Below, piece after piece: positions 7,019-35,403 of a stretch of DNA of 35,787 bases; the first letter of the stretch is position 1, and the number at the start of each line of letters is the position of its first letter. A program made the translations under genes and the position numbers. This stretch comes from a virus. The stretch spans positions 1 to 35,787 of the IMG/VR virus record IMGVR_UViG_3300008113_000588. One strand, 5' to 3'. A model generated the notes under the pieces. That model did not search any database. It saw nothing but the letters and a program-made list of their open reading frames with translations, and was not told where the DNA came from.

Positions 7019-7773
7019 TTTCTTTCAATGTCCTCTTCTGCACACTGCTCGCCGTACTGTATTTCCACAATCTTGCATGGTTGATCAAATGGATTGGTCA
7101 GCTGATGCCACTCTCCTACTGCAATGCGGTACTCCTGATGCGGATGAAGATGGGTAGGAGGCAATACATATCCGCTGGCCAGTTGACTATTGACTATGCA
7201 CTCGCCTTGGCTCACAATCCAGTATTCCGCACGATGTTGGTGCCGTTGCATGCTGAGGCTCTGCCCCGGATCCACTGTGAGTTCTTTGACTTTCATTCCT
7301 GCCACTTCGTGCAGCACACGATAGTATCCCCACTGCCGTTCAGTTCTTGGAGCTTTCCATTCTTGAAGTATCCATGAGCTAGAGTTGCGTTTGTCTTCGC
7401 CGCCTACACCAAATGCAAAAGAGATTTGTGAGTCTTGCACTGTCATTTCAGGAATGTTGGCCTGTGTGCGATCGCCACCGTTGGCAAACACAATGTCAGC
7501 TGTGGGATATCTAGCGCGAACCACCCGTATGGCATCGCAACTAGATCCGTCATCGTCGTTGTAGGTCACGACTTCGTCAACCATGTTGAGATTGCCTACA
7601 AGAGCCAGGCGTTCCTGTAAAGGCATGAATGGCCGACCTTTTTTACGGGTCAGCCATGCATCTGAGTTGAGTCCAACTATGAGTCTGTCGCCTAGGGTGC
7701 GAGCTGCTTTGAAGTAGGCTAGGTGGCCCGAATGAACAGGATCATATCCCCCCGTGCAAAGTACGATTTTCAT
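7015..7773 (-). CDS. HldE/RfaE-type nucleotidyltransferase fused to mannose-6-P isomerase-type cupin
   Basis: A 252-residue two-domain protein. Residues 1-125 are a cytidylyltransferase-like domain with G-G-Y-D-P-V-H-S-G-H (the H-x-G-H nucleotide-binding motif), V-G-L-N-S-D and R-x-x-L-V, like the adenylyltransferase part of HldE, which makes ADP-heptose. From about residue 140 it turns into a cupin like the C-terminal domain of ManC/type II mannose-6-phosphate isomerase: P-R-T-E-R-Q-W-G-Y-Y, then L-S-M-Q-R-H-Q-H-R-A-E-Y-W-I-V with metal-binding histidines, and a final Q-Y-G-E-x-x-x-E-E-D-I-E-R-K. It may activate and isomerise a sugar for the downstream transferases. Its ATG overlaps the stop of the HNH endonuclease gene. 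Confidence 0.85.
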   Translation of the reverse strand: MKIVLCTGGYDPVHSGHLAYFKAARTLGDRLIVGLNSDAWLTRKKGRPFMPLQERLALVGNLNMVDEVVTYNDDDGSSCDAIRVVRARYPTADIVFANGGDRTQANIPEMTVQDSQISFAFGVGGEDKRNSSSWILQEWKAPRTERQWGYYRVLHEVAGMKVKELTVDPGQSLSMQRHQHRAEYWIVSQGECIVNSQLASGYVLPPTHLHPHQEYRIAVGEWHQLTNPFDQPCKIVEIQYGEQCAEEDIERK

Positions 7774-8459
7774 TTTTTAATAATCCTTCCTTCTATATAT
7801 CCTAGAGGAACCTTGTCGGGGAAAAATGTAGAGCAGGTTTTTGTTATAGGACAATGGTACCACTTTTTTCCGCGCTTACCATTGCCAGCAGCGTAGCGGC
7901 GAGAAGGATCTTGCATTTGCTCAAGCGTGTATTTTTTGCGCATTTCAATTTGAGCTGGATCTTGGAATTGTTTTTTGTTTGCTAGGCGAAGTTTTTCTTT
8001 TGTTTCATTAGAGTGATTCTTGCCTAACAGGGGAGGATCTTGTAAAGCCCTTTTCTCTCTCATTTTTGCTTTAATCTCGTCCGAATGTTTTCTTCCGTAG
8101 TACGGATTGTTTTCTCCAGTTTGGTACTTAGAGATACTATTTTTTGTGGCTGAGATTATAGCAGCGTATGTACGAGAACTAATTTTATAACGCTGTTGAT
8201 GCGTATTTTCTTGATTAACTAAACACCTGATAGCATAAGACATTTTCATCTTATCTCTGCCTGAGGTCATTTTAACCAACAAGCGATGACAAATAAAATG
8301 CTCCCTGGCAGTCAGGGCAACAATGTTTTCTTTTTTATTGCTGCCGCCGAGACTCTTTGGAATAATATGATGCCGTTCGACATATCCATTAAAGGGATTG
8401 TTTTTTCTATGCTCAATAATGGTATAATACCATCTTGAATATTTGTTGTTAATAAACAT
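7770..8459 (-). CDS. HNH homing endonuclease with NUMOD3 repeats
   Basis: A 229-residue free-standing homing endonuclease. Near residue 30 it has R-H-H-I-I-P-K-S-L-G-G followed by E-N-I-V-A-L-T-A-R-E-H-F-I-C-H, the HNH nuclease core with paired catalytic histidines and N. Around residue 100 is G-E-N-N-P-Y-Y-G-R-K-H-S, a NUMOD3 DNA-binding motif, with a second weaker copy (G-K-N-H-S-N-E-T-K). Start 8459 is supported by AGGAG eight bases upstream; a start further upstream would lack a site. The DNA is more AT-rich than its neighbours, fitting recent acquisition. Its stop forms ATGA with the next gene and a perfect late promoter lies just upstream, so it heads the glycan operon. Confidence 0.9.
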   Translation of the reverse strand: MFINNKYSRWYYTIIEHRKNNPFNGYVERHHIIPKSLGGSNKKENIVALTAREHFICHRLLVKMTSGRDKMKMSYAIRCLVNQENTHQQRYKISSRTYAAIISATKNSISKYQTGENNPYYGRKHSDEIKAKMREKRALQDPPLLGKNHSNETKEKLRLANKKQFQDPAQIEMRKKYTLEQMQDPSRRYAAGNGKRGKKWYHCPITKTCSTFFPDKVPLGYIEGRIIKK

Positions 8460-8476
8460 ACTTTCTCCTGTATGGT

Positions 8477-8484
8477 TATTTATA
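8477..8484 (-). promoter_or_regulatory. T4-type late promoter box TATAAATA
   Basis: The minus strand reads TATAAATA, the exact T4 late promoter consensus used by the gp55/gp33/gp45 late transcription machinery. A start about seven bases downstream would give a leader of roughly ten bases carrying AGGAG before the HNH gene at 8459. Because all genes from 8459 to 2968 overlap end to start, this box probably drives the whole glycan operon late in infection. Confidence 0.8.
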
Positions 8485-8513
8485 CAACCTAGCATCAAAT
8501 CCACCAGTAACAA

Positions 8514-11534: not shown

Positions 11535-14500
11535 TTATCGACCCAGGGCCAGACTTTTTAATCTAGCCAAATCTGCATCATGTTGTTGACTTTCCTGAAC
11601 CTGACTCTCATGCATGCCACATTCGGCTAGGCCATGTTCGGGACACATTTCGCCTTCCATGGTATGGTTGCAGCCACCAGATTCATTTGTTTGATATTCA
11701 TCTAGGTCGTCATCCTTGTCAAGAATGGGAGTTTGTTTATATCGTGATTGTTTGCCAGATGATTTGACCCCTGGCTCGCCAGGTGTGCCATCCTGATAAT
11801 TTGTTTTGGTATGTTTGATACCGTGCGCGGTTTTTGTAACGATGCCGCCTTTGTGAGTTTTGACAGCATCATCACTGTCAAGATCTTCTGCAAATTCAGC
11901 CAACAGGCTTTCGGCTAGATTTTTGGCTTTGGCGGGCGCTGCAGGTTGCTTTGTAACTGGTGCAGTATTTGGAGATTTGAATCCCATAGTAGTTTTGCCG
12001 TATGCAGTGGGGCCTGCAAAATTAGCAGCAGCTGGCTTTGCGTATTTTTCCATTCCTGGCATTTTCATTACGTTACCAGCGTTGAATGTAGGAGCTGGTA
12101 CTGTACCAGCAGCAGCAGGTTTTGCGACTGCAGCAGGTTGAGTTGCTGTCTGTGCCGCAGGTTGTGCTGCTGAGCTCGGCTGACCAGCAGTTGTGCTGGT
12201 TGCCATTGGCAAGGGTTTAGTGGCTGCAGGTTGAGTGGCTGCAGGTTGAGTGGCTGTGGTTGCTGGCGCTGCGCCAGCTGGCGAGGTTGACGGGGTAGGC
12301 ACTGGTTTGTCAACAGGAATATTTCTAGACATTGTGGGCTGAGCTCCTGGCTCGCCTGCAAATGGTATTTGCATGCTGGCAAACACTTGTTTGATAGTGG
12401 CTGCTGGAACTCCTGCATTCTGAATAACTTTGGCCACATCTAAGCTGTCAGTAGGGCTCTTGGCTTTTTTCCAGGCCTGCAATAGTTTGTCAGCAGTTAC
12501 TTTTGTGGTTAGATTAGTGCCTTTGGTCTTGACGTAATCTGCTGCTTTGCCGGCTGCACCTTTGATGGTGTCCATAATACCTTCATCAAGTTTGCGTTGG
12601 CGATCAACTATGTTTCCAATCACAAGATATATCTGTGATTCGGATAATTTTCTTGACTCGTTCATCCCACCTGCGCGGTTTGCAGCAACCATAGCAGCTT
12701 TTTGTGCTATACTCTCTATACTCTGTTGAGCTAATTTTCCGCCAGCTGCAGATCCGAATTGGTCAATAGCACCTTGAACTGTACCAGCTATAGTATTTAC
12801 AGAATTTGGATCAATACCTCCAGCAATCGCATCTTCTGCAGCTTTCAAGGCAATAGCTTCTACTTCTTGACGTAGTGCTTTTCCGGCTAATTTAGAAACA
12901 TCAGTAGCACTAGAAGCAGCACTAGAGGCAGCTTGTTGGGCAGCTTGATATGATGCACTGCCGACTGTGTCAGTTGGGCCAGCTGGATTCCACTGTCCCA
13001 CAACAGAGTCTGTTCCGTCAGGTACTTTTGATACCATAGAAAAATCGCCGTGCTGTGCTTGAATGTCTACGGTATCGCCTGGCATTTTTGGTGTACCGTC
13101 AGGATATTCTCCAAGATCTCCGCCAACACCGCCTTCAGGCTTGCCTTTAATAAGGTCGCCTAGTTTACTAGCACCGTAGGCCATGGCGCCTGTCTTGGCA
13201 CCTGAATAAGCAGCAGATGTAAATCGTTCGCCTTTTAGCAGATTGTCAGCCATTTTGAGCAAACCTAATGCAGCGGCCCCACCTATGCCAGCGCCGCTGA
13301 TACCAGCCACAGCAATTAATGCAGCATATATGGCACCTTGTGCCACAGGGTGTTTTTTGGCAAAATCTCTATACTTCTGTGCCCATTTATTAACTTCACC
13401 ATTGAATTGGGGATCTGCAGAACCTACACCAATTTTGCTGAGAACATCACTTACTTTCTGATCAAATCCTTGCACAGGACCTGAATTTTGCATTTTAGTT
13501 TTGAGACCTTCCCAGGCTTTGTTAACTGCTGATGCTGCATCCTTGCCCTTGCCAATCATGGTACGGTTGTCACCTGCGGCTGTGGCATTTTGTTGTACCT
13601 GTTGAAAAATCTGATTGATCTGATCAACTGTCAATTGTGCTTCGACTAGTTTATGTCCGGCACTTTCCCACAGCTTGTAGGTTCGGGATTCAGTCAGCAT
13701 GGTGGTATTTGTATTTTTCCAACCTTCGGCTAGGTCTTTTGCTTTGGCTTCTTTTTCTAAATCTTGTTGACGTTGTTGCACAGCTTTTTGATCTACACCC
13801 GGGTTTCTTGACAGGTCTTGTAGTGCTCGGCGTTTGGCCACTAGGTCTGCTTTGTCTCGAAGAGCTGTTTCTGTCACGCCTTGACCTAATTGTTTTAGAT
13901 CATTAGTATTGACATCTTGCGTGACACCCCCCATGCCTTTTTCAATTGTGATTCGAGCACGTTTACGATCTTTAGACAGGGCAACAACTTCCGCCTTTTG
14001 ACCAAGATACTTCACTATGTCGCCAACTTGGATCATTTTCATAATAGCACCGCCGACATCCACTTTAGTATCACCAGCAAAGCGACCCTGGTCTCCCCAA
14101 GGATCGTCGCCTTCTGTCACACCTTGCTCATCTAGTCCACGTTGTTTTCTTAGTTTGTGCAGACTACGGAATTGATTGCGTTTGTTGGGGCGCGGAAGAT
14201 CAGCCAGCGCACTTTCTTGAACAGGCTGTTGAGCAGCAGGATCAACTGCAGGTTCGGCAGCAGGATCAACTGCAGGTTCGGCAGTAGGCAGCTGGACACC
14301 CAGTTCAGCCAGGCGTGTTTGTATTTCAGAATCGTCCCAGACATTGGCCGATGCATCACGAGCAGCCAGTTCTTCCAGTCGATCAAACAACACATCATCG
14401 CCCACTAGGTCATACAGTTGTTGTGTGGCATTGGTAGCGTCGGGTCCCACGATCAGTTCACGACTCATGAGTTCCTGCAGCTTGTTTTGTTGTTCAGGAG

Positions 14501-15500
14501 TTTCAGGCAACTGCCAGGTGCCTTCGGTCAGGTGATCAGCCCAGGATTCAAATATGTCAGCTTCTTTCATTCGGTTTTCCTGTTGTAGTCGTGCCAGCAC
14601 AGGCAGTGCTGCTTCAATTCTAGAATCCAGAGTCTGTTCCACAAACATGGTCTTGATAGAGTCTACCAGTTCTTCTTGTAGTGTGGTTTCGGCAGGGTGC
14701 CAGGATTCAAAATAGGCTTGATAGCCACGTGTGTGAGCCATGCGTTTGAGATTCTCACGCAGGCTTTTGTAATATTGTTGTGCTTCAGTTACCAGTTCAG
14801 CAGTGACTCCTTCCAGCACACGACCGGCACTGGCTCGATTGAATCTACTCAAGGTGGCGATCTCGCTTACCATTTCTGTGATGTGACTGCCACGCACATC
14901 ATAGGGCCGGCCACCTTGGCGCACATGCTCCAGCATGGCTCGACCGCCAGCTAGGTTCTTGAACTGTAGACGATATCGTTCTGAATCAGCTGTTTCAATA
15001 AACAAACTCTCCACATAGCGGAAACGTGCATCCGTTTCGCCCAGCACACGATTGTGCTGAATAACTAATCTTGCCTCAGTGGGCTCACCAGAGTAGCTGA
15101 TCCGGCGTGTGCCATAGTAGCCTTCGAACAGGCCTTCTTTGATGGCTGCAAGACCCTGCATGGTATACTTGACTTGGTTGATGTTCTTGGGACTGTAGGT
15201 CCAACGACGCATGTTGGCAAACTTGTGCAGGTGCTGCACAAAGTCAAAGAATTCTGTTTTGTCATCGCCTTCCATGCTGCGACCCAGGTTGTCCCCGTAG
15301 AACACCTGCATTTCGTTGTCAGTGTCCAGGATGACGACCATGGTTCCGTAGTTTTTGCCGCTGCTGCTCACAAAGTCAAATGTAAAAATTTCAGCATTTT
15401 CAGCGTCTGTGGGACGACCCTCTTTGTCCAACAGTTCGGCTTGGAAATCACGACTGGCCAGCAGGTCGTTTAGTTGTGAGGAGATGTTTTCTTGTGCCAT
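11535..15500 (-). CDS. Giant modular protein, putative internal or structural virion protein
   Basis: A 1,321-residue protein of no known enzyme family. Residues 1-290 form a conserved region (F-T-F-D-F-V-S-S-S-G, F-Y-G-D-N-L-G) that I recognise from aquatic T4-like phages. Next come helical, acidic parts, an A-E-P-A-V-D-P-A tandem repeat, and a small beta domain (I-Q-V-G-D-I-V-K-Y-L-G) bounded by two Q-G-V-T-E linkers (residues about 459 and 540). A glycine/alanine-rich hydrophobic segment near residues 718-745 could cross a membrane. A Pro/Ala/Thr/Gln-rich stretch follows near 1060-1150. The end has C-N-H-T-M-E-G-E-M-C-P-E-H-G-L-A-E-C, a likely metal knot. Many L/V-x-E-S/A/G sites suit a prohead protease. 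It may be an ejected internal protein. A late box lies seven bases before ATG. Confidence 0.7.
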   Translation of the reverse strand: MAQENISSQLNDLLASRDFQAELLDKEGRPTDAENAEIFTFDFVSSSGKNYGTMVVILDTDNEMQVFYGDNLGRSMEGDDKTEFFDFVQHLHKFANMRRWTYSPKNINQVKYTMQGLAAIKEGLFEGYYGTRRISYSGEPTEARLVIQHNRVLGETDARFRYVESLFIETADSERYRLQFKNLAGGRAMLEHVRQGGRPYDVRGSHITEMVSEIATLSRFNRASAGRVLEGVTAELVTEAQQYYKSLRENLKRMAHTRGYQAYFESWHPAETTLQEELVDSIKTMFVEQTLDSRIEAALPVLARLQQENRMKEADIFESWADHLTEGTWQLPETPEQQNKLQELMSRELIVGPDATNATQQLYDLVGDDVLFDRLEELAARDASANVWDDSEIQTRLAELGVQLPTAEPAVDPAAEPAVDPAAQQPVQESALADLPRPNKRNQFRSLHKLRKQRGLDEQGVTEGDDPWGDQGRFAGDTKVDVGGAIMKMIQVGDIVKYLGQKAEVVALSKDRKRARITIEKGMGGVTQDVNTNDLKQLGQGVTETALRDKADLVAKRRALQDLSRNPGVDQKAVQQRQQDLEKEAKAKDLAEGWKNTNTTMLTESRTYKLWESAGHKLVEAQLTVDQINQIFQQVQQNATAAGDNRTMIGKGKDAASAVNKAWEGLKTKMQNSGPVQGFDQKVSDVLSKIGVGSADPQFNGEVNKWAQKYRDFAKKHPVAQGAIYAALIAVAGISGAGIGGAAALGLLKMADNLLKGERFTSAAYSGAKTGAMAYGASKLGDLIKGKPEGGVGGDLGEYPDGTPKMPGDTVDIQAQHGDFSMVSKVPDGTDSVVGQWNPAGPTDTVGSASYQAAQQAASSAASSATDVSKLAGKALRQEVEAIALKAAEDAIAGGIDPNSVNTIAGTVQGAIDQFGSAAGGKLAQQSIESIAQKAAMVAANRAGGMNESRKLSESQIYLVIGNIVDRQRKLDEGIMDTIKGAAGKAADYVKTKGTNLTTKVTADKLLQAWKKAKSPTDSLDVAKVIQNAGVPAATIKQVFASMQIPFAGEPGAQPTMSRNIPVDKPVPTPSTSPAGAAPATTATQPAATQPAATKPLPMATSTTAGQPSSAAQPAAQTATQPAAVAKPAAAGTVPAPTFNAGNVMKMPGMEKYAKPAAANFAGPTAYGKTTMGFKSPNTAPVTKQPAAPAKAKNLAESLLAEFAEDLDSDDAVKTHKGGIVTKTAHGIKHTKTNYQDGTPGEPGVKSSGKQSRYKQTPILDKDDDLDEYQTNESGGCNHTMEGEMCPEHGLAECGMHESQVQESQQHDADLARLKSLALGR
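12221..12257 (-). repeat. 15-base tandem repeat (A-T-Q-P-A coding)
   Basis: TGGCTGCAGGTTGAG is present at 12221-12235 and 12236-12250, followed by a partial copy. On the coding minus strand it encodes repeated A-T-Q-P-A units in the low-complexity linker of the large modular protein. Slippage at such units would change linker length in frame. Confidence 0.75.
13869..14126 (-). repeat. Direct repeats bounding an 81-codon cassette (Q-G-V-T-E linkers)
   Basis: TTCTGTCACACCTTG at 14112-14126 and TTCTGTCACGCCTTG at 13869-13883 match at 14 of 15 bases. On the coding strand both encode Q-G-V-T-E, and their spacing is 243 bases, exactly 81 codons. They enclose a self-contained beta-rich domain with I-Q-V-G-D-I-V-K-Y-L-G, which looks SH3-like. 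The arrangement mirrors the 67-codon cassette in the gene at 20697-22109. Confidence 0.75.
14236..14283 (-). repeat. 24-base perfect tandem repeat
   Basis: GCAGGATCAACTGCAGGTTC plus GGCA is repeated exactly at 14236-14259 and 14260-14283. It encodes two copies of an eight-residue A-E-P-A-V-D-P-A unit in a flexible linker of the large modular protein. Perfect identity suggests a recent duplication. Confidence 0.85.
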
Positions 15501-20696: not shown

Positions 20697-22109
20697 TTAC
20701 CAGGCGCGGCAACTCCAATAGCGGGCCTTGTGGCGTGGCCCTGGATTGTCGCAGTTGTGACGAGCACGGAAGTTTTTGCGGCGTCCCGGAATGCTCTTTT
20801 TAATCTTCATGCCCTTTTGTCCAAAATTGACTTTGACCACACGACCTTGCGGGTTCTTTACATAAACTTTGGATTTTTTAACATCTCCTGCCATGGGTTT
20901 ACCCAAGGGCACTTTGCGACCTTGGTATTCGGCTTCGTTCATGCCGTTGGCACCATACATGGATTCTAATTCTTGGCCTACCAGGGCTGCAGCGTCAACC
21001 ACTGTCATGCCCGAGAATGTGCCTTGCTCGGCCATGTCCACCACTGCGTCTTCCACTTCGCCCATGCCATAGTCGTCAAACCATGTGGGATTATGACGCT
21101 CAATGTGTCGCAACAGTTTGCTCACGCTGGCCATTGTGGCAGCTTCGTTTAACGAGCCTTCCGCCACACCTTGCTTCGTCAAGTGTCGGAGTTCTTGTAC
21201 TGCTTCTTCGAAACTGTCAAATCCCGACAGGTCTTTGCCCGAAGCATAGTGTTTCATGTAATACTGACCAACGCCGGGACTGGATTCGCGGTCGATGCCA
21301 ACTTCGCCCACTGGCTGCCCATTTTTTTTGAATATTTTCCTTTGTTGATCTGCGTGACCTTCCGCCACACCTTGGTCCAGGCTGTCCAAAATTTCTTGAA
21401 CCATGTTGACCCAACCGCTGACATCGCTGGTGCCAATTTCGTCTACATCGCCCACTAAGTCAGCAACATCATCTACGGCTTGCATCACACGCTCAGGGCC
21501 GTGCTGGGACAACATGCCTGGATGACGCATCATGATGCGGTGCAGAGTGGCACGGGCTACAGGACTGTCTTCATTTTTCTTGTCACTGTCTAACCAAGGG
21601 TATCTGGATTCAGTTGCTGGCTGTTCCATGACGCCACGCTCTTTTTTACTGGAGATGTAGTCAGATGCAGTGTCCACATAGTCAGTGGCTTTGTTGATCT
21701 TTTTCTGTGTCCACTCGGGCATGTTGTCATTGTTATCCAGCATACCAATCAGTTTACGAGCCGAACGAATCATGGTCATGAGTTCGTCTTTGGCCATGTC
21801 GCCTTCTTGATCATACTCGCCTGGATCCTGACCAACATCAGTCTCATCGCCGTACTCGTCAGCTGACTGACCGCAGCCGCAGCCCGAGCCACCACATTCC
21901 ATGCAGGTTTGTTCAAAACTATAACCATAACTTTCCAACAACTGCATCATGCGTTCGTCTGCAGCAATGACCACACCGTCGTCGCGGCTCTCAACCACAA
22001 CACTTTCGATCAAGCATTCTTCACGAATGTTGATGGCAAAATTGTCGCCCACCACAGGATTATCTGCGGCTTCTTCGGATTCTGACAAGTAGTCGCGAAA
22101 GTTCTTCAT
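20697..22109 (-). CDS. Modular acidic protein with capsid-targeting-like leader
   Basis: A 470-residue protein. The start at ATG 22109 (M-K-N-F-R-D-Y-L-S-E-S) follows the upstream stop by two bases with AAAGG ahead of it; this leader resembles T4 capsid-targeting sequences such as M-K-T-Y-Q-E-F-I-A-E. Modules in order are: a beta region with D-D-G-V-V-I-A-A-D-E, a cysteine knot C-M-E-C-G-G-S-G-C-G-C-G, a helical module (M-P-E-W-T-Q-K-K-I-N-K-A), and helices M-M-R-H-P-G-M-L. Then comes a 67-codon cassette bounded by Q-G-V-A-E-G twice, and a final conserved region V-K-N-P-Q-G-R-V-V-K-V-N-F-G with R-H-N-C-D and A-R-Y-W-S-C-R-A-W, similar to the DUF5872-like tail. I infer a packaged internal protein. 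Confidence 0.68.
   Translation of the reverse strand: MKNFRDYLSESEEAADNPVVGDNFAINIREECLIESVVVESRDDGVVIAADERMMQLLESYGYSFEQTCMECGGSGCGCGQSADEYGDETDVGQDPGEYDQEGDMAKDELMTMIRSARKLIGMLDNNDNMPEWTQKKINKATDYVDTASDYISSKKERGVMEQPATESRYPWLDSDKKNEDSPVARATLHRIMMRHPGMLSQHGPERVMQAVDDVADLVGDVDEIGTSDVSGWVNMVQEILDSLDQGVAEGHADQQRKIFKKNGQPVGEVGIDRESSPGVGQYYMKHYASGKDLSGFDSFEEAVQELRHLTKQGVAEGSLNEAATMASVSKLLRHIERHNPTWFDDYGMGEVEDAVVDMAEQGTFSGMTVVDAAALVGQELESMYGANGMNEAEYQGRKVPLGKPMAGDVKKSKVYVKNPQGRVVKVNFGQKGMKIKKSIPGRRKNFRARHNCDNPGPRHKARYWSCRAW
21157..21374 (-). repeat. 17-base perfect direct repeats bounding a 67-codon cassette (Q-G-V-A-E-G)
   Basis: CCTTCCGCCACACCTTG is present exactly at 21157-21173 and 21358-21374. 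On the coding strand each copy encodes Q-G-V-A-E-G, and the 201-base spacing is 67 codons, so gain or loss of the unit keeps the frame. The enclosed segment (F-K-K-N-G-Q-P-V-G-E-V-G-I-D, Y-Y-M-K-H-Y-A-S-G-K-D) looks like a complete small domain. Confidence 0.88.
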
Positions 22110-22111
22110 GA

Positions 22112-24931
22112 TTAGCCTTTGTATGTGTTCCAAAGATTCTGCAAATCAAAGATGCTTTCTTTTACAGCTTTTTCTTTTTTGTCATCCACAGCTTTTTTCA
22201 TTGGCTCTGATTTGTCGCCGTCTTTGTCCATGTCCAAGAAGTCAGGCTTGGTTTTTTTAACACCGGCCATTTCCATCATGCGGGCCAGATCATCTTGACC
22301 TGATCCTGAACTGATTAATGATTCAAAGTCGCTCAACAAATCTTTTGCATACGCATCCATGTTTCTGAATTCGCCACCGTCTTGAGTTCCGTAGGTGTCT
22401 ACCACTGCTTCCACTGCTGCTTCGGCATTGCCTTGTTTGAGATAAGCAATGGCTCGATCCACATCAGGGTCGCCATACACACGCATCTGAGTCATGTTGC
22501 GATCAAAGTCACCCACTAGGTCACGCACTTGATCTGCCATGTTGGAATCTGCGGCTTCGTCCAAATTGTCATCTTCATCGTCTTCTTTGTGCACTGTGCT
22601 CACAGCAGTGACTTGACCTGTGGATTGACCATCGCCGGCCACGTCTGTCTTGGGCTTGTTGATACCACCTGAATATTGGAAAGCATCGTTGCTGGTTTCT
22701 GTGTTGGTTGGCCAGTCAGGCTTGTTTTCATCCACCATGTCAGGTGCCTGACTGTAGGACTCGCCATGATTGTGGTCGCTGCCCAGGCCGGCCATTTTCA
22801 ACATCATGGCCAGTTTGTCTGCGTCATCGTCTGTGGCAGTGATTGTGAGGCTTTTGGTTGGGCCACCGTGGCTGTCGCTGTTCATGTTCATGCTGATGTT
22901 CATGCTTTCGTCTAGACGACTCATGCTTTCAGAAATCATGTTTTCTAGATCACGGTTCATGCTGTCATAGATGCCGCCACCAAAGTTAAAACCGCCGCTG
23001 CTCTTTTTGCCGCCCTCTGCTGGTGCAGTGGCCACGCTGCCGCTGGTGGTAGTTTCTTCAACTTTTTCTTCTTTGGCTTTTTTGGCTGGCTTTTTGTCAC
23101 TGTCTTTCGCCTTGACTTTTTCTGGCAGGCCCTTGTGCTTGGTGCTGGCAAACTTGTCAGCTTCTTTGGCACTGATACCTTTGGCTGCTTTGGCAACTTC
23201 TTTTGAAGCAGGCTTCTCGCCTTTCTTGGCAGCATGAACCATGCCCATGAAACGCTGTTGCTTCTTGCTCACAGCTTTTTCATTCATTTGCTCTTCGTCG
23301 TCCTGGTTGTATTTTATCTTTTCCAACACACCTTGCAAGGTATTGCCCAGGGAGTTGCTGCCTGCTTCAAATGCTCGGTCCATCAAATCTTGAATGAATT
23401 CCACATCTTCTATAGTGGTCCAGGTCTGTGGATCAGACTCTTCGCCCACCATCTTGTGTTTGGTCACGGCACCTTTGTGCTTGGGCAGGTTAACCTTGCC
23501 CACACCAAATGCTGACCAGTCAGGCTTCATGACTTGACCTGTTTCGCTGTCGGCATTTTTCTTGGGACGACCACGTCCACGCTGTGTCTGCACTTTGGGA
23601 GCTTCTTCGTCGTCCTTGCGACCATAGCCGCCAGGTTCACTAGTATGACGACGTCCGCCAGGAATTTCTTTGACTGCCTCCTCCATGTTTTGATCACTTT
23701 CGATCCAGGCCAGCACATCCTCATAGTCATAGCCCAGTTTTTCTGCTGCTGTTTGTTCAGCATCTTCAGGTTCAAGATTGGGATTCAGCATCATCAAGTG
23801 ACGTTTTTTACGTGCAACTTTATTCCAGTCAGCTTGAGTGAATTCGTCCGCTGCTTCTGCCATGCCACGCACAGGTTGCTTGCCTTTGCCCAGTGCAGCT
23901 TTCATGGCTTCGGCTGCTACATCGCCCAGCATCTCGTCAACTTCTTTTTTGGCGCCGGCAATCTTGTCGGCAAAAGTGATCTTGTCTTTGGGCTCAGCCA
24001 AGGCAGCGAATGATTTTTGCTTGGCACTCATGGGTGCTGCAGCCTCTTTCATGCCTACTACCTTGTCCAACATGGCAGCGGCATGAGCAAGACGATCAGT
24101 TAGATCATATTGGCTAATATGTTGAGCAATATTGCCACCTCTCATGGGAGCAATACCATCTTCTTTGCTGCCCACTTCTACGTTATCAATCAAGTCGAGG
24201 TATTTGCCAATTACAGCACGAGCCTTTTTAAATTCAGGCGAACGGTCGCTGCCGAATGTAGCATTTAACACATCTCTCAAGTTATCCACGGTTCTTCCGG
24301 GATTATTCATTTCTTGTTCAACAGCAGCCAATAGATCTGCAGGTCCTTCTTGGTCGTTTTCTTTTACAGGACGACGGCCACCAGTCTTGCGTTCTAGGTC
24401 ACGCAGCAAGTCTTCGTCGCCAGGTGCCACAAAGTCAGCTACCTTTTTCACGCCCTTGGCAATCTTGCCCATCACGCCTGGCTTCTTACCCACCTTGGCA
24501 AAGTCTGGGTTTAGCTCCATAGCGTCTTTAGTGTGATTGCCTTCTTCCATGCTCTCATCATACTTGTCAAACTTGTTGCGCACAGGGTCCAATGCCTTGC
24601 CTTCACGTCCAGCCTTGGCCAGGGCCTGCATGCCATCTTTGCCATATTTTTCAATGCCCTTGGCGGCACGACTCATGCCGGCTTCATCAACTTTTTTGCT
24701 CTTGATTGACAGGCCCTTGGTCAAGTCGCCGGCACTACCGCCAAATTTGTCCTGCATTTTGGATTTGTAATCAGGCTTTTGTTTAGCGGCCTGTTTCATA
24801 GGCTCTTTTTTGTTGCCGTCTCGGTCCAGGTCTAGGAAGTCTGGCTTGCTCTCATTCAGTTGCTTGTGGGTAGTTTCAGGCAATTCACGAATGCCGTTGA
24901 GTTTTTTGTTTAGATCGTAGAAAAATGACAT
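22112..24931 (-). CDS. Large low-complexity modular protein with EF-hand-like and AT-hook motifs
   Basis: A 939-residue, highly charged protein. It begins M-S-F-F-Y-D-L-N-K-K, and Q-L-N-E-S near residue 25 would suit prohead protease. Two related repeats, K-P-D-F-L-D-L-D-R-D-G-N (residues 29-40) and K-P-D-F-L-D-M-D-K-D-G-D (895-906), resemble a calcium-binding EF-hand or dockerin loop and frame the protein. Between them are a helical middle, an AT-hook-like R-G-R-G-R-P-K-K near 450, a DUF3008-like module (K-K-Q-Q-R-F-M-G-M-V, F-A-S-T-K-H-K-G-L-P) near 552-606, a Lys/Glu stretch, and a Met/Ser/Asp-rich part. The composition suggests a DNA-associated internal head or scaffold-like protein. AGAGGATAA precedes the ATG, and a two-base gap separates it from the next gene. 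Confidence 0.68.
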   Translation of the reverse strand: MSFFYDLNKKLNGIRELPETTHKQLNESKPDFLDLDRDGNKKEPMKQAAKQKPDYKSKMQDKFGGSAGDLTKGLSIKSKKVDEAGMSRAAKGIEKYGKDGMQALAKAGREGKALDPVRNKFDKYDESMEEGNHTKDAMELNPDFAKVGKKPGVMGKIAKGVKKVADFVAPGDEDLLRDLERKTGGRRPVKENDQEGPADLLAAVEQEMNNPGRTVDNLRDVLNATFGSDRSPEFKKARAVIGKYLDLIDNVEVGSKEDGIAPMRGGNIAQHISQYDLTDRLAHAAAMLDKVVGMKEAAAPMSAKQKSFAALAEPKDKITFADKIAGAKKEVDEMLGDVAAEAMKAALGKGKQPVRGMAEAADEFTQADWNKVARKKRHLMMLNPNLEPEDAEQTAAEKLGYDYEDVLAWIESDQNMEEAVKEIPGGRRHTSEPGGYGRKDDEEAPKVQTQRGRGRPKKNADSETGQVMKPDWSAFGVGKVNLPKHKGAVTKHKMVGEESDPQTWTTIEDVEFIQDLMDRAFEAGSNSLGNTLQGVLEKIKYNQDDEEQMNEKAVSKKQQRFMGMVHAAKKGEKPASKEVAKAAKGISAKEADKFASTKHKGLPEKVKAKDSDKKPAKKAKEEKVEETTTSGSVATAPAEGGKKSSGGFNFGGGIYDSMNRDLENMISESMSRLDESMNISMNMNSDSHGGPTKSLTITATDDDADKLAMMLKMAGLGSDHNHGESYSQAPDMVDENKPDWPTNTETSNDAFQYSGGINKPKTDVAGDGQSTGQVTAVSTVHKEDDEDDNLDEAADSNMADQVRDLVGDFDRNMTQMRVYGDPDVDRAIAYLKQGNAEAAVEAVVDTYGTQDGGEFRNMDAYAKDLLSDFESLISSGSGQDDLARMMEMAGVKKTKPDFLDMDKDGDKSEPMKKAVDDKKEKAVKESIFDLQNLWNTYKG

Positions 24932-24937
24932 AGTAAA

Positions 24938-25546
24938 TTATCCTCTTGGTTGGGCGCCAGTTGCTGGCCGGGGTGGACGCTTGATTGTGGCAAAAGGACT
25001 CTTGGTGCCCATTGGCAAATCATTTGTGGTTTTGGCTGGGGGTGTCTTGCCGCCTGCTATTGTGAAATCTGATCGATAGGCGTTTTTCAACACCACGTGA
25101 TCGTGAGGCTCAGCACTGTAATCTTTGATTAGAGCACGTTGCTCAGCATCGTCTGCTGGGTAGTCAGTATCGCTCAAGAGATCTCGATTCTGGTCCGCAA
25201 TCTTTTCTGCTTCTTGAGCCATGCTTTCTTCGTAGGGCACAGTGTTCATCACAATGCGATTTGGATCAAGTCCGCACAATTGTGCCAACTGTTTGACTTG
25301 TGGTTCTACAGCAGGGTATCGAAACTCCACATCAACCATGCTCATGCTTTGATTGGGGTATGCTGGAAAGTCAGTGTTGATCTTACGCACAGGAGTGGAT
25401 TTGACGTCAGACATTTTGACAATGTCGAACTGGGCCAGTTTAGACTTGAGGTCTCGAACAAAGCCTTCGGGAACGTCGCCCACCATCTTGATGCGATATC
25501 GATAAGTGCGTTCGCTTTCAGCAAGGTATTTTGCAAGTGTATTCAT
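24938..25546 (-). CDS. Conserved phage protein with capsid-targeting-like leader, function unknown
   Basis: A 202-residue protein starting M-N-T-L-A-K-Y-L-A-E-S-E. The leader resembles those at 20697-22109 and 35125-35403, with aromatic/aliphatic residues then x-E at about position 10. Next is an alpha/beta region (Y-R-Y-R-I-K-M-V-G-D, F-D-I-V-K-M-S-D-V-K, M-V-D-V-E-F-R-Y-P) that looks like a small ferredoxin-like fold, then a helix with C-G-L-D-P-N-R-I, and a Pro-rich basic tail. I recognise homologues only as uncharacterised phage proteins. An AATAAATA box and AATAGGATAC ribosome site precede the ATG. It lies directly downstream of the probable gp16. Confidence 0.68.
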   Translation of the reverse strand: MNTLAKYLAESERTYRYRIKMVGDVPEGFVRDLKSKLAQFDIVKMSDVKSTPVRKINTDFPAYPNQSMSMVDVEFRYPAVEPQVKQLAQLCGLDPNRIVMNTVPYEESMAQEAEKIADQNRDLLSDTDYPADDAEQRALIKDYSAEPHDHVVLKNAYRSDFTIAGGKTPPAKTTNDLPMGTKSPFATIKRPPRPATGAQPRG

Positions 25547-26095: not shown

Positions 26096-26102
26096 TATTT
26101 AG
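26096..26102 (-). promoter_or_regulatory. Late promoter box CTAAATA directly before gp16
   Basis: CTAAATA on the minus strand shares its TAA with the stop codon of the GIY-YIG-like gene and lies four bases before the gp16 ATG. No ribosome site fits between, so the transcript is probably leaderless or nearly so. CTAAATA is the late-box form known from T4-like cyanophages. Confidence 0.65.
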
Positions 26103-26701
26103 TGGATAAGACGTTGGTAACTTTCAAAGTCTGCCCGATGCAGCAGTGAGTATTTGACTTTATCCCACGTGATGTTTAATTTTTTAGAAATTTGTAAATT
26201 GTTAAGCCCAGTGTCATAAAGCCTAATGATCTGCAGTGCTAATTCTAGATTCTTTTCTAGATAGGTAGTTAACGTTGATTGTCGTTTTTTATCGGTCCAG
26301 GATTGCCCTTTTCTCAAAGCTGCATTTTTAAGGCAGTTGGTCAGTCTGGACTGCACAGCTTTTTCAGTCCATACTTTTGATTCCTGATAGTGTTTAATTT
26401 TTTCTTTTGTTGATGTTGACATTTTACCTGAGCCGCCTTCCCCAGTTTCTGGTTTTAAATTAGCCCATGCATTGTCATCAACAACATTCCATAAGTTACT
26501 GTAATATTGCCCCCAATATTTTATTTCATCATTAGTTTGGCATTCTTTAAGAATTTCAGTGGTTACATCATTTCCGTGTTTTAATAGATGACGACACCAA
26601 TATACGCCTGATCCTTTGTACTTGTATGGATTTTGTATTGTTTTACCTAGGTATTTTAACCCAGTTCTGTTATGTGTTTTCACATAGAGATAAGTAGACA
26701 T
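26099..26701 (-). CDS. GIY-YIG-like homing endonuclease
   Basis: A 200-residue free-standing endonuclease of the Seg/GIY-YIG kind. The N-terminus has Y-L-Y-V-K-T-H-N-R-T-G-L-K-Y-L-G-K-T, a divergent GIY-YIG core (Y-L-Y and Y-L-G), then Y-K-G-S-G-V-Y-W near residue 30 and the conserved E-I-L-K-E. The C-terminal part has R-L-Y-D-T-G-L-N-N-L-Q-I-S-K-K-L-N-I, a helix-turn-helix for DNA targeting. The DNA is clearly more AT-rich than its neighbours. AAAAGGAG precedes the ATG at 26701. It sits exactly between gp4 and gp16, with late boxes on both sides sharing TAA stop codons. It should cut related genomes that lack it. Confidence 0.82.
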   Translation of the reverse strand: MSTYLYVKTHNRTGLKYLGKTIQNPYKYKGSGVYWCRHLLKHGNDVTTEILKECQTNDEIKYWGQYYSNLWNVVDDNAWANLKPETGEGGSGKMSTSTKEKIKHYQESKVWTEKAVQSRLTNCLKNAALRKGQSWTDKKRQSTLTTYLEKNLELALQIIRLYDTGLNNLQISKKLNITWDKVKYSLLHRADFESYQRLIH

Positions 26702-35124: not shown

Positions 35125-35403
35125 CTATCGATACTTGTTCAGTTTGGCGGCCAATTTAGCTGCTGGATTTAGACGCTTGGTGCGCTTGGCTTTGCGAGCT
35201 TGACGTACTTTGGTTTTGGCACGAGTCAGTTTCATAGCAGAAGACTTTTCCCGATCCAGGCTAGCTGAACATTGGTTAGGTTCTGCCACTATGCGTCCTT
35301 TCCTGGGCCCGGCCGCACAGCGCCATTTCATGCCGAGCTTGCCAGTCTTAGCATTGCGTTTGAACACTTTTTTGTTCTCAGTTACGAATTCACTAGCTCT
35401 CAT
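35125..35403 (-). CDS. Small basic protein with capsid-targeting-like leader
   Basis: A 92-residue protein. It starts M-R-A-S-E-F-V-T-E-N, a leader with aliphatic/aromatic residues and x-E at position 9, like T4 capsid-targeting sequences. The rest is strongly basic: M-K-W-R-C-A-A-G-P-R-K-G-R-I-V near residue 25, then N-Q-C, and a C-terminal R-Q-A-R-K-A-K-R-T-K-R-L-N-P-A. It probably binds nucleic acid and could be packaged in the head. I recognise relatives in aquatic phages without a named function. The ATG overlaps the upstream stop (TAATG). Its two cysteines might bind metal. Confidence 0.7.
   Translation of the reverse strand: MRASEFVTENKKVFKRNAKTGKLGMKWRCAAGPRKGRIVAEPNQCSASLDREKSSAMKLTRAKTKVRQARKAKRTKRLNPAAKLAAKLNKYR

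Follow-up and report, generated by a model that had tools for sequence, protein, structure and literature searches.

The 470-aa protein encoded by one gene of this window (the whole 35,787-nucleotide stretch of viral DNA that was analysed) is best read as a capsid-internal polyprotein made of exchangeable cassettes, in which a short repeated joint provides homology for recombination and is also a probable cleavage site. We regard this reading as likely, with a probability of roughly 0.7; cleavage, packaging, ejection and the recombination enzyme are all inferred. What has been shown is that the joint belongs to a dispersed family, that its frame and the cassette boundaries are real, that alleles with and without a cassette exist, that the joint is conserved at the DNA level, that an [LIVM]xE/A site is conserved (a slash marks the predicted cut here and below), and that a suitable protease co-occurs.

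The repeated joint and its gene

The 17-mer CCTTCCGCCACACCTTG is present in exactly two copies in the window, at 21157-21173 and 21358-21374 (plus-strand coordinates), 201 bp apart, and both copies are in frame and read QGVAEG on the minus strand. The original prediction, made from sequence alone, that an exact pair 201 bases apart places QGVAEG at both ends of a 67-codon unit was therefore upheld. No other 17-mer is exactly repeated in the window except within short-period tandems. Positions 14110-14126 carry a third, diverged copy that differs at 2 bases, and at ≤3 mismatches the window has three matches, compared with a shuffle mean of 0.11; the repeat is real and not a product of chance. 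When 351 copies are compared, the conserved unit is really about 20 nt long (positions -2 to +17) and has sharp edges.

The gene runs, in order, through a capsid-targeting-like leader, N-terminal domains, a linker, a module that we call HADQQ, a second linker, a helical segment and a conserved C-terminal domain:

22109..20697, minus: modular gene, 470 aa, from the ORF and its translation; the ORF opens with TTG at 22133 and the likely start is the ATG at 22109
22080..22109, minus: N-terminus resembling a capsid-targeting sequence, MKNFRDYLSE/S, from the sequence
21357..21374, minus: upstream joint, 17-mer coding QGVAE/G, predicted cut after the E codon at 21360-21362
21159..21359, minus: exchangeable HADQQ module (GHADQQ...LTKQGVAE), with a length of exactly 67 codons if cut after E
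21156..21173, minus: downstream joint, second 17-mer coding QGVAE/G, predicted cut after the E codon at 21159-21161
21144..21155, minus: SLNE/A, a second motif-like site right after the downstream joint
20934..20942, minus: MNE/A site immediately preceding the conserved C-terminal domain
20697..20933, minus: conserved C-terminal domain (AEYQGRKV...ARYWSCRAW), which matches phrog_7595

The SLNE with which the segment after the joint begins is also found at the start of other modules. The protein as a whole has no Pfam match; its C-terminal domain has at least 599 relatives in the viral collection. Orthologues of the gene are found in two viral contigs, L168 and L169, and in cultured Kyanoviridae phages. 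One of the latter, C48C1, encodes only 105 aa, consisting of a leader (N-terminus MKKFKQYIDE/G) and the C-terminal domain without inserts, and lacks the joint. At the site of the HADQQ module L168 has different modules and L169 has none. The original prediction would have been refuted had every homologue carried the domain at one and the same position with diverged linkers; this is not the case.

Dispersal of the joint and its modules

The 17-mer is not confined to this gene. Its third, diverged copy belongs to another gene of the window, in which it bounds a second module:

15500..11535, minus: second gene, 1321 aa, partly like phrog_13484 'virion structural protein' (at the gene start)
14112..14126, minus: diverged joint QGVTE/G in the 1321-aa gene, the match with 2 mismatches
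13869..14111, minus: second module, GDDPWG...QGVTE (81 aa), between QGVTE/G and QGVTE/T

This 81-aa module recurs in another contig, L414, between unrelated flanks. Beyond the window, the exact 17-mer is present in contigs of T4-like environmental phages, at least 120 of them, a lower bound because scans of the collection are capped; these contigs, from IMG/VR, derive from metagenomes and are for the most part fragments. The original prediction had proposed a search for the word elsewhere in related genomes, which thus found it in many related phage contigs; what it missed is that this is a phage-wide family and not one cassette. At 159 of 160 distinct testable exact copies the QGVAEG frame is the longest ORF, and at the sole exception (L118) that frame is open too, for 432 aa.

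Sampling of 205 non-redundant ORFs gave 293 internal segments that fall into about 199 module families with a median length of 75 aa. Single ORFs carry up to nine joints, in arrays of up to ten segments, and the joint connects module families in many different orders. The HADQQ module of the window is itself present in 45 viral contigs; among 33 of its copies that were sampled, 30 distinct neighbours were counted on the left and 31 on the right. It has no match in cultured phages; when four linker ORFs were searched against cultured phages, three had no match and the fourth matched over part of its length.

No known family could be assigned to most modules. For the HADQQ module an AlphaFold model (mean pLDDT 80) predicts a small beta4-alpha domain with disordered linker residues; the module has no Pfam match above the cut-off, no PHROG match and no PDB fold at E <= 0.001, and in BFVD it matched one protein of an uncultured phage. 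Across 67 linker ORFs, Pfam matches are spread over GNAT, nucleotidyltransferase, deaminase, ParB-like nuclease, GP88, SutA-RBD (RNA-polymerase-binding) and TAT signals, a content that could suit head-delivered effectors or polyvalent proteins (PMC5512222). Several modules in L002, L097, L142 and L196 start with DRRGFLKGLG or SRRGFLKGAG, and the Pfam TAT model matches 2 of the 67 linker ORFs; twin-arginine signals directly after a joint, within phage ORFs, are odd. By eye only, modules in L150, L047 and L158 with a NYLYHAT.. stretch resemble proteins of the ADP-ribosyltransferase fold.

A mobile repeat of cellular origin was also considered and rejected: when 84,980 genomes of bacteria and archaea were searched for the 18-nt joint, 43 isolated, scattered matches turned up but never two at one locus, and these matches are most probably due to chance.

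Exchange of modules at the joint

Among ORFs that share DNA of >=95% identity, 82% of internal homology ends fall on a joint, compared with 11% expected from coverage; these ends were taken from BLAST HSPs and are hence approximate. Nine pairs of loci, each comprising a filled and an empty allele, were inspected at their junctions. Four of these pairs have flanks that are 86-97% identical; in them whole codons are missing (106 in L116/L153, 98 in L012/L018, 89 in L224/L011 and 148 in L196/L204), and exactly one joint is left in the empty allele. Modules are therefore exchanged in frame, with their boundaries at the joint. The original prediction, that an in-frame module flanked by conserved linker codons can be exchanged, held, and the presence/absence alleles ending at the repeat that it had proposed to look for were found, with one linker kept; the excision that it described is only part of the process, gain or exchange being equally likely. 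At a separate locus (L001:3001-3420) two HADQQ modules follow each other in tandem, with joints that have an unusual GTCGCA in common, and this tandem is likely to be a recent duplication.

One alternative involves no mobility: the repeat would be the diverged remnant of an ordinary duplication inside one gene, tandem or segmental, or a product of chance. In its favor, the window has its two 17-mer copies inside one gene. Chance and local duplication were ruled out by the dispersal of the 17-mer in unrelated contexts together with the shuffle expectation; the word is spread over no fewer than 120 contigs, some loci are known in both a filled and an empty form, and chance predicts 0.11 matches even when 3 mismatches are allowed. 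Almost no room is left for this explanation.

Conservation of the joint as DNA

In the set of 351 copies, which was picked by similarity to the 17-mer itself, third codon positions of the joint are conserved as well as first and second positions. At loci selected via the module protein and not via the 17-mer, synonymous (third-position) mismatch is 0.14 in the joints vs 0.41 in a part of that module whose amino acids are identical; third-position mismatch in gp23 from seven carrier genomes is 0.36. Codon bias as the cause of linker conservation was rejected, because the five joint codons together have P = 0.003 under the codon usage of the ORF and GCG is a rare codon (6%). A synonymous word that codon usage makes about 11 times likelier was found in only 16 contigs, none of them clearly of the joint family. 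A direct test of rates on homologous pairs that span the linker had only 4 pairs available, because the neighbours of a module are so rarely conserved. These results show that the joint is conserved at the DNA level and not merely as protein; that its uniformity comes from homogenisation by recombination is an inference.

Conservation as DNA, with sharp edges, is also what would speak for a dedicated enzyme, a homing endonuclease or a site-specific recombinase, that targets the 17-20 nt word as part of an active mobile element. T4-like phages have many homing endonucleases, and the window has ORFs at 7770-8513 and 26099-26701 that we take, from their translations and without comparison to a library, to be HNH-like and GIY-YIG-like. 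Against this, the word lacks palindromic symmetry, some boundaries lie at further [VILM]xE sites from which it is missing, and no enzyme gene was found tied to the joints, although only the linker ORFs were scanned and their neighbours were not systematically covered. In that Pfam scan of the 67 linker ORFs themselves, and not of their neighbours, recombinase and transposase domains were absent. We consider a dedicated enzyme very unlikely.

A head-protease motif at segment boundaries

The prohead protease of T4, gp21, has its cleavage site after L/I-X-E, and T4 proteins are directed into the head by leaders of ten residues (PMC9026906). The protein sequence of the joint, V-A-E/G, matches the gp21-type head-protease motif [LIV]xE/, a fit that the original prediction missed. 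At the left joints of HADQQ modules, E is present in 35 of 35 distinct junctions, P3 is V, M or A in all of them, and P2 is variable.

The strongest test of a protease site is the boundary of the C-terminal domain, which is independent of the 17-mer. All 62 homologues examined have [LVIM]xE/A before this domain (L/I/V in 54/62), with fourteen different middle residues and otherwise unrelated upstream sequence. The site is MNE/A in the window and LTE/A in C48C1, and in L168 it is replaced by the joint, as QGVAE/A. V occupies P3 in 18/62 homologues, which shows that V is tolerated at this conserved site, not that it is cut. Furthermore, where homology breaks far from any 17-mer, 32% of the breaks are at [VILMF]xE vs 10% of random positions; no enrichment was seen when E in the motif was replaced by D, K or Q.

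Leaders and protease genes were surveyed as well. A short leader with [LIVF]xE begins 62% of linker ORFs vs 23% of other long ORFs, a control set that includes spurious ORFs. Both an S77 protease and gp23 are encoded in 7/10 long carrier records; no S77 protease was found in the other 3/10 tested, which are possibly fragments, and the window, itself a fragment, has no S77 protease gene. Two points speak against cleavage: gp21 of T4 favours L/I at P3 and the joint has V, and [LIV]xE is short and often arises by chance in these acidic proteins. There is no proteomic proof of cleavage or packaging, and that the joint is a probable cleavage site remains an inference.

It could instead be argued that the cassettes are shuffled but that the joint is merely a flexible linker, with no proteolysis, so that the products are whole multidomain structural or injected proteins in the manner of polyvalent proteins. 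The evidence for exchange does not require cleavage, the joint is predicted to be disordered, and polyvalent proteins are multidomain and can act uncut (PMC5512222). A flexible linker, however, leaves unexplained the invariant E with its hydrophobic P3 and free P2, the location of other boundaries at [VILMF]xE and not at xD, xK or xQ, and the capsid-targeting-like leaders. We consider this explanation unlikely.

A model for the cassette arrays

Under the preferred reading, that of a processed polyprotein of exchangeable cassettes, the leader would bring the modular protein into the prohead of a T4-like phage, where a gp21-type S77 prohead protease would cut V-A-E/G and similar [LIVM]xE/ sites between segments. 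The segments would then be freed inside the head as separate small proteins, some of them probably ejected into the host. The QGVAE joint encoded by the 17-mer would be the commonest and most uniform of these segment-boundary sites. General phage homologous recombination between identical joints would add, drop, duplicate or swap cassettes, which is possible because an identical DNA word is present in many genes and phages; the resulting arrays would all stay in frame and processable, given that the joint matches a cleavage site as well. We propose that cassettes with the consensus joint spread best and that this is why the word is uniform at synonymous sites.

A bolder version, which we would neither back nor dismiss, is that a protease-site word serves many T4-like phages as a common recombination joint and has been kept uniform among them, which gives them access to an open-ended, in-frame pool of head-delivered effectors that can be gained, lost or swapped in single steps. 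If this is true, phages diversify their head cargo through one sequence that is both a DNA recombination joint and a protein cut point, and every shuffled array remains functional and in frame. The joint would then be a simple DNA tag by which hundreds of uncharacterised phage proteins, probably delivered from the head, could be listed as candidate counter-defence or take-over factors, and the arrays would be a case from nature of phage heads that carry cleavable protein cargo.

Relation to known systems

A close parallel to such arrays is with the internal proteins of T4 (IPI-III and Alt, processed by gp21; PMC9026906), which share a short [LI]xE leader, variable cargo and a gp21-type motif at segment boundaries; the S77 protease is likewise present in most long carrier genomes. 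The T4 proteins, however, have a single cargo per gene, whereas here there are up to ten segments per ORF and the joint is identical as DNA. Polyvalent proteins (Iyer et al. 2017, PMC5512222) are multidomain and suspected of being packaged and delivered, and the present proteins may resemble them, since matches to GNAT, nucleotidyltransferase and ParB-like nuclease domains are scattered over the linker ORFs; polyvalent proteins use embedded proteases or act whole, whereas the modules here are mostly tiny and of no known family, and a shared DNA-conserved joint is not described in the relevant passages of that work.

Short conserved DNA joints also shuffle modules in T4-type phages in the case of T-even tail-fibre adhesins (Tetart et al. 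1998) and of mobile regulatory cassettes (Arbiol et al. 2010), both cited in PMC3797505. The former reportedly concerns one adhesin locus and the latter intergenic regulatory cassettes; the joint described here differs in being coding, in fitting a protease site and in being dispersed over many genes and phages. The ongoing shuffling of fragments among phages is likewise seen in a survey of domain mosaicism in phage proteins (PMC10684548), which emphasises tail fibres, endolysins and polymerases and does not mention linkers, direct repeats or prohead proteins. Outside phages, Rickettsia palindromic elements insert in frame into many unrelated proteins. They resemble the present case as a recurrent in-frame element in many unrelated proteins, but here the recurrent part is confined to the joint, which is non-palindromic, and the cargo is highly varied.

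Other features of the window

The window also encodes what we take, on our own reading, to be UvsX-like and gp32-like proteins, which bears on the general recombination proposed above. The 1321-aa ORF contains short-period tandem repeats at 14233-14284 (24 nt) and 12219-12251 (15 nt), which code for Ala/Pro-rich stretches. Adjoining the 470-aa gene is a 939-aa ORF (22112-24931, minus) that has a DUF3008-like stretch just below the cut-off, an AT-hook-like motif and matches to several unknown PHROGs, and that may be another multi-part head protein. Two small minus-strand ORFs, at 25546..24938 and 35403..35125, start with the capsid-targeting-like leaders MNTLAKYLAES and MRASEFVTEN.
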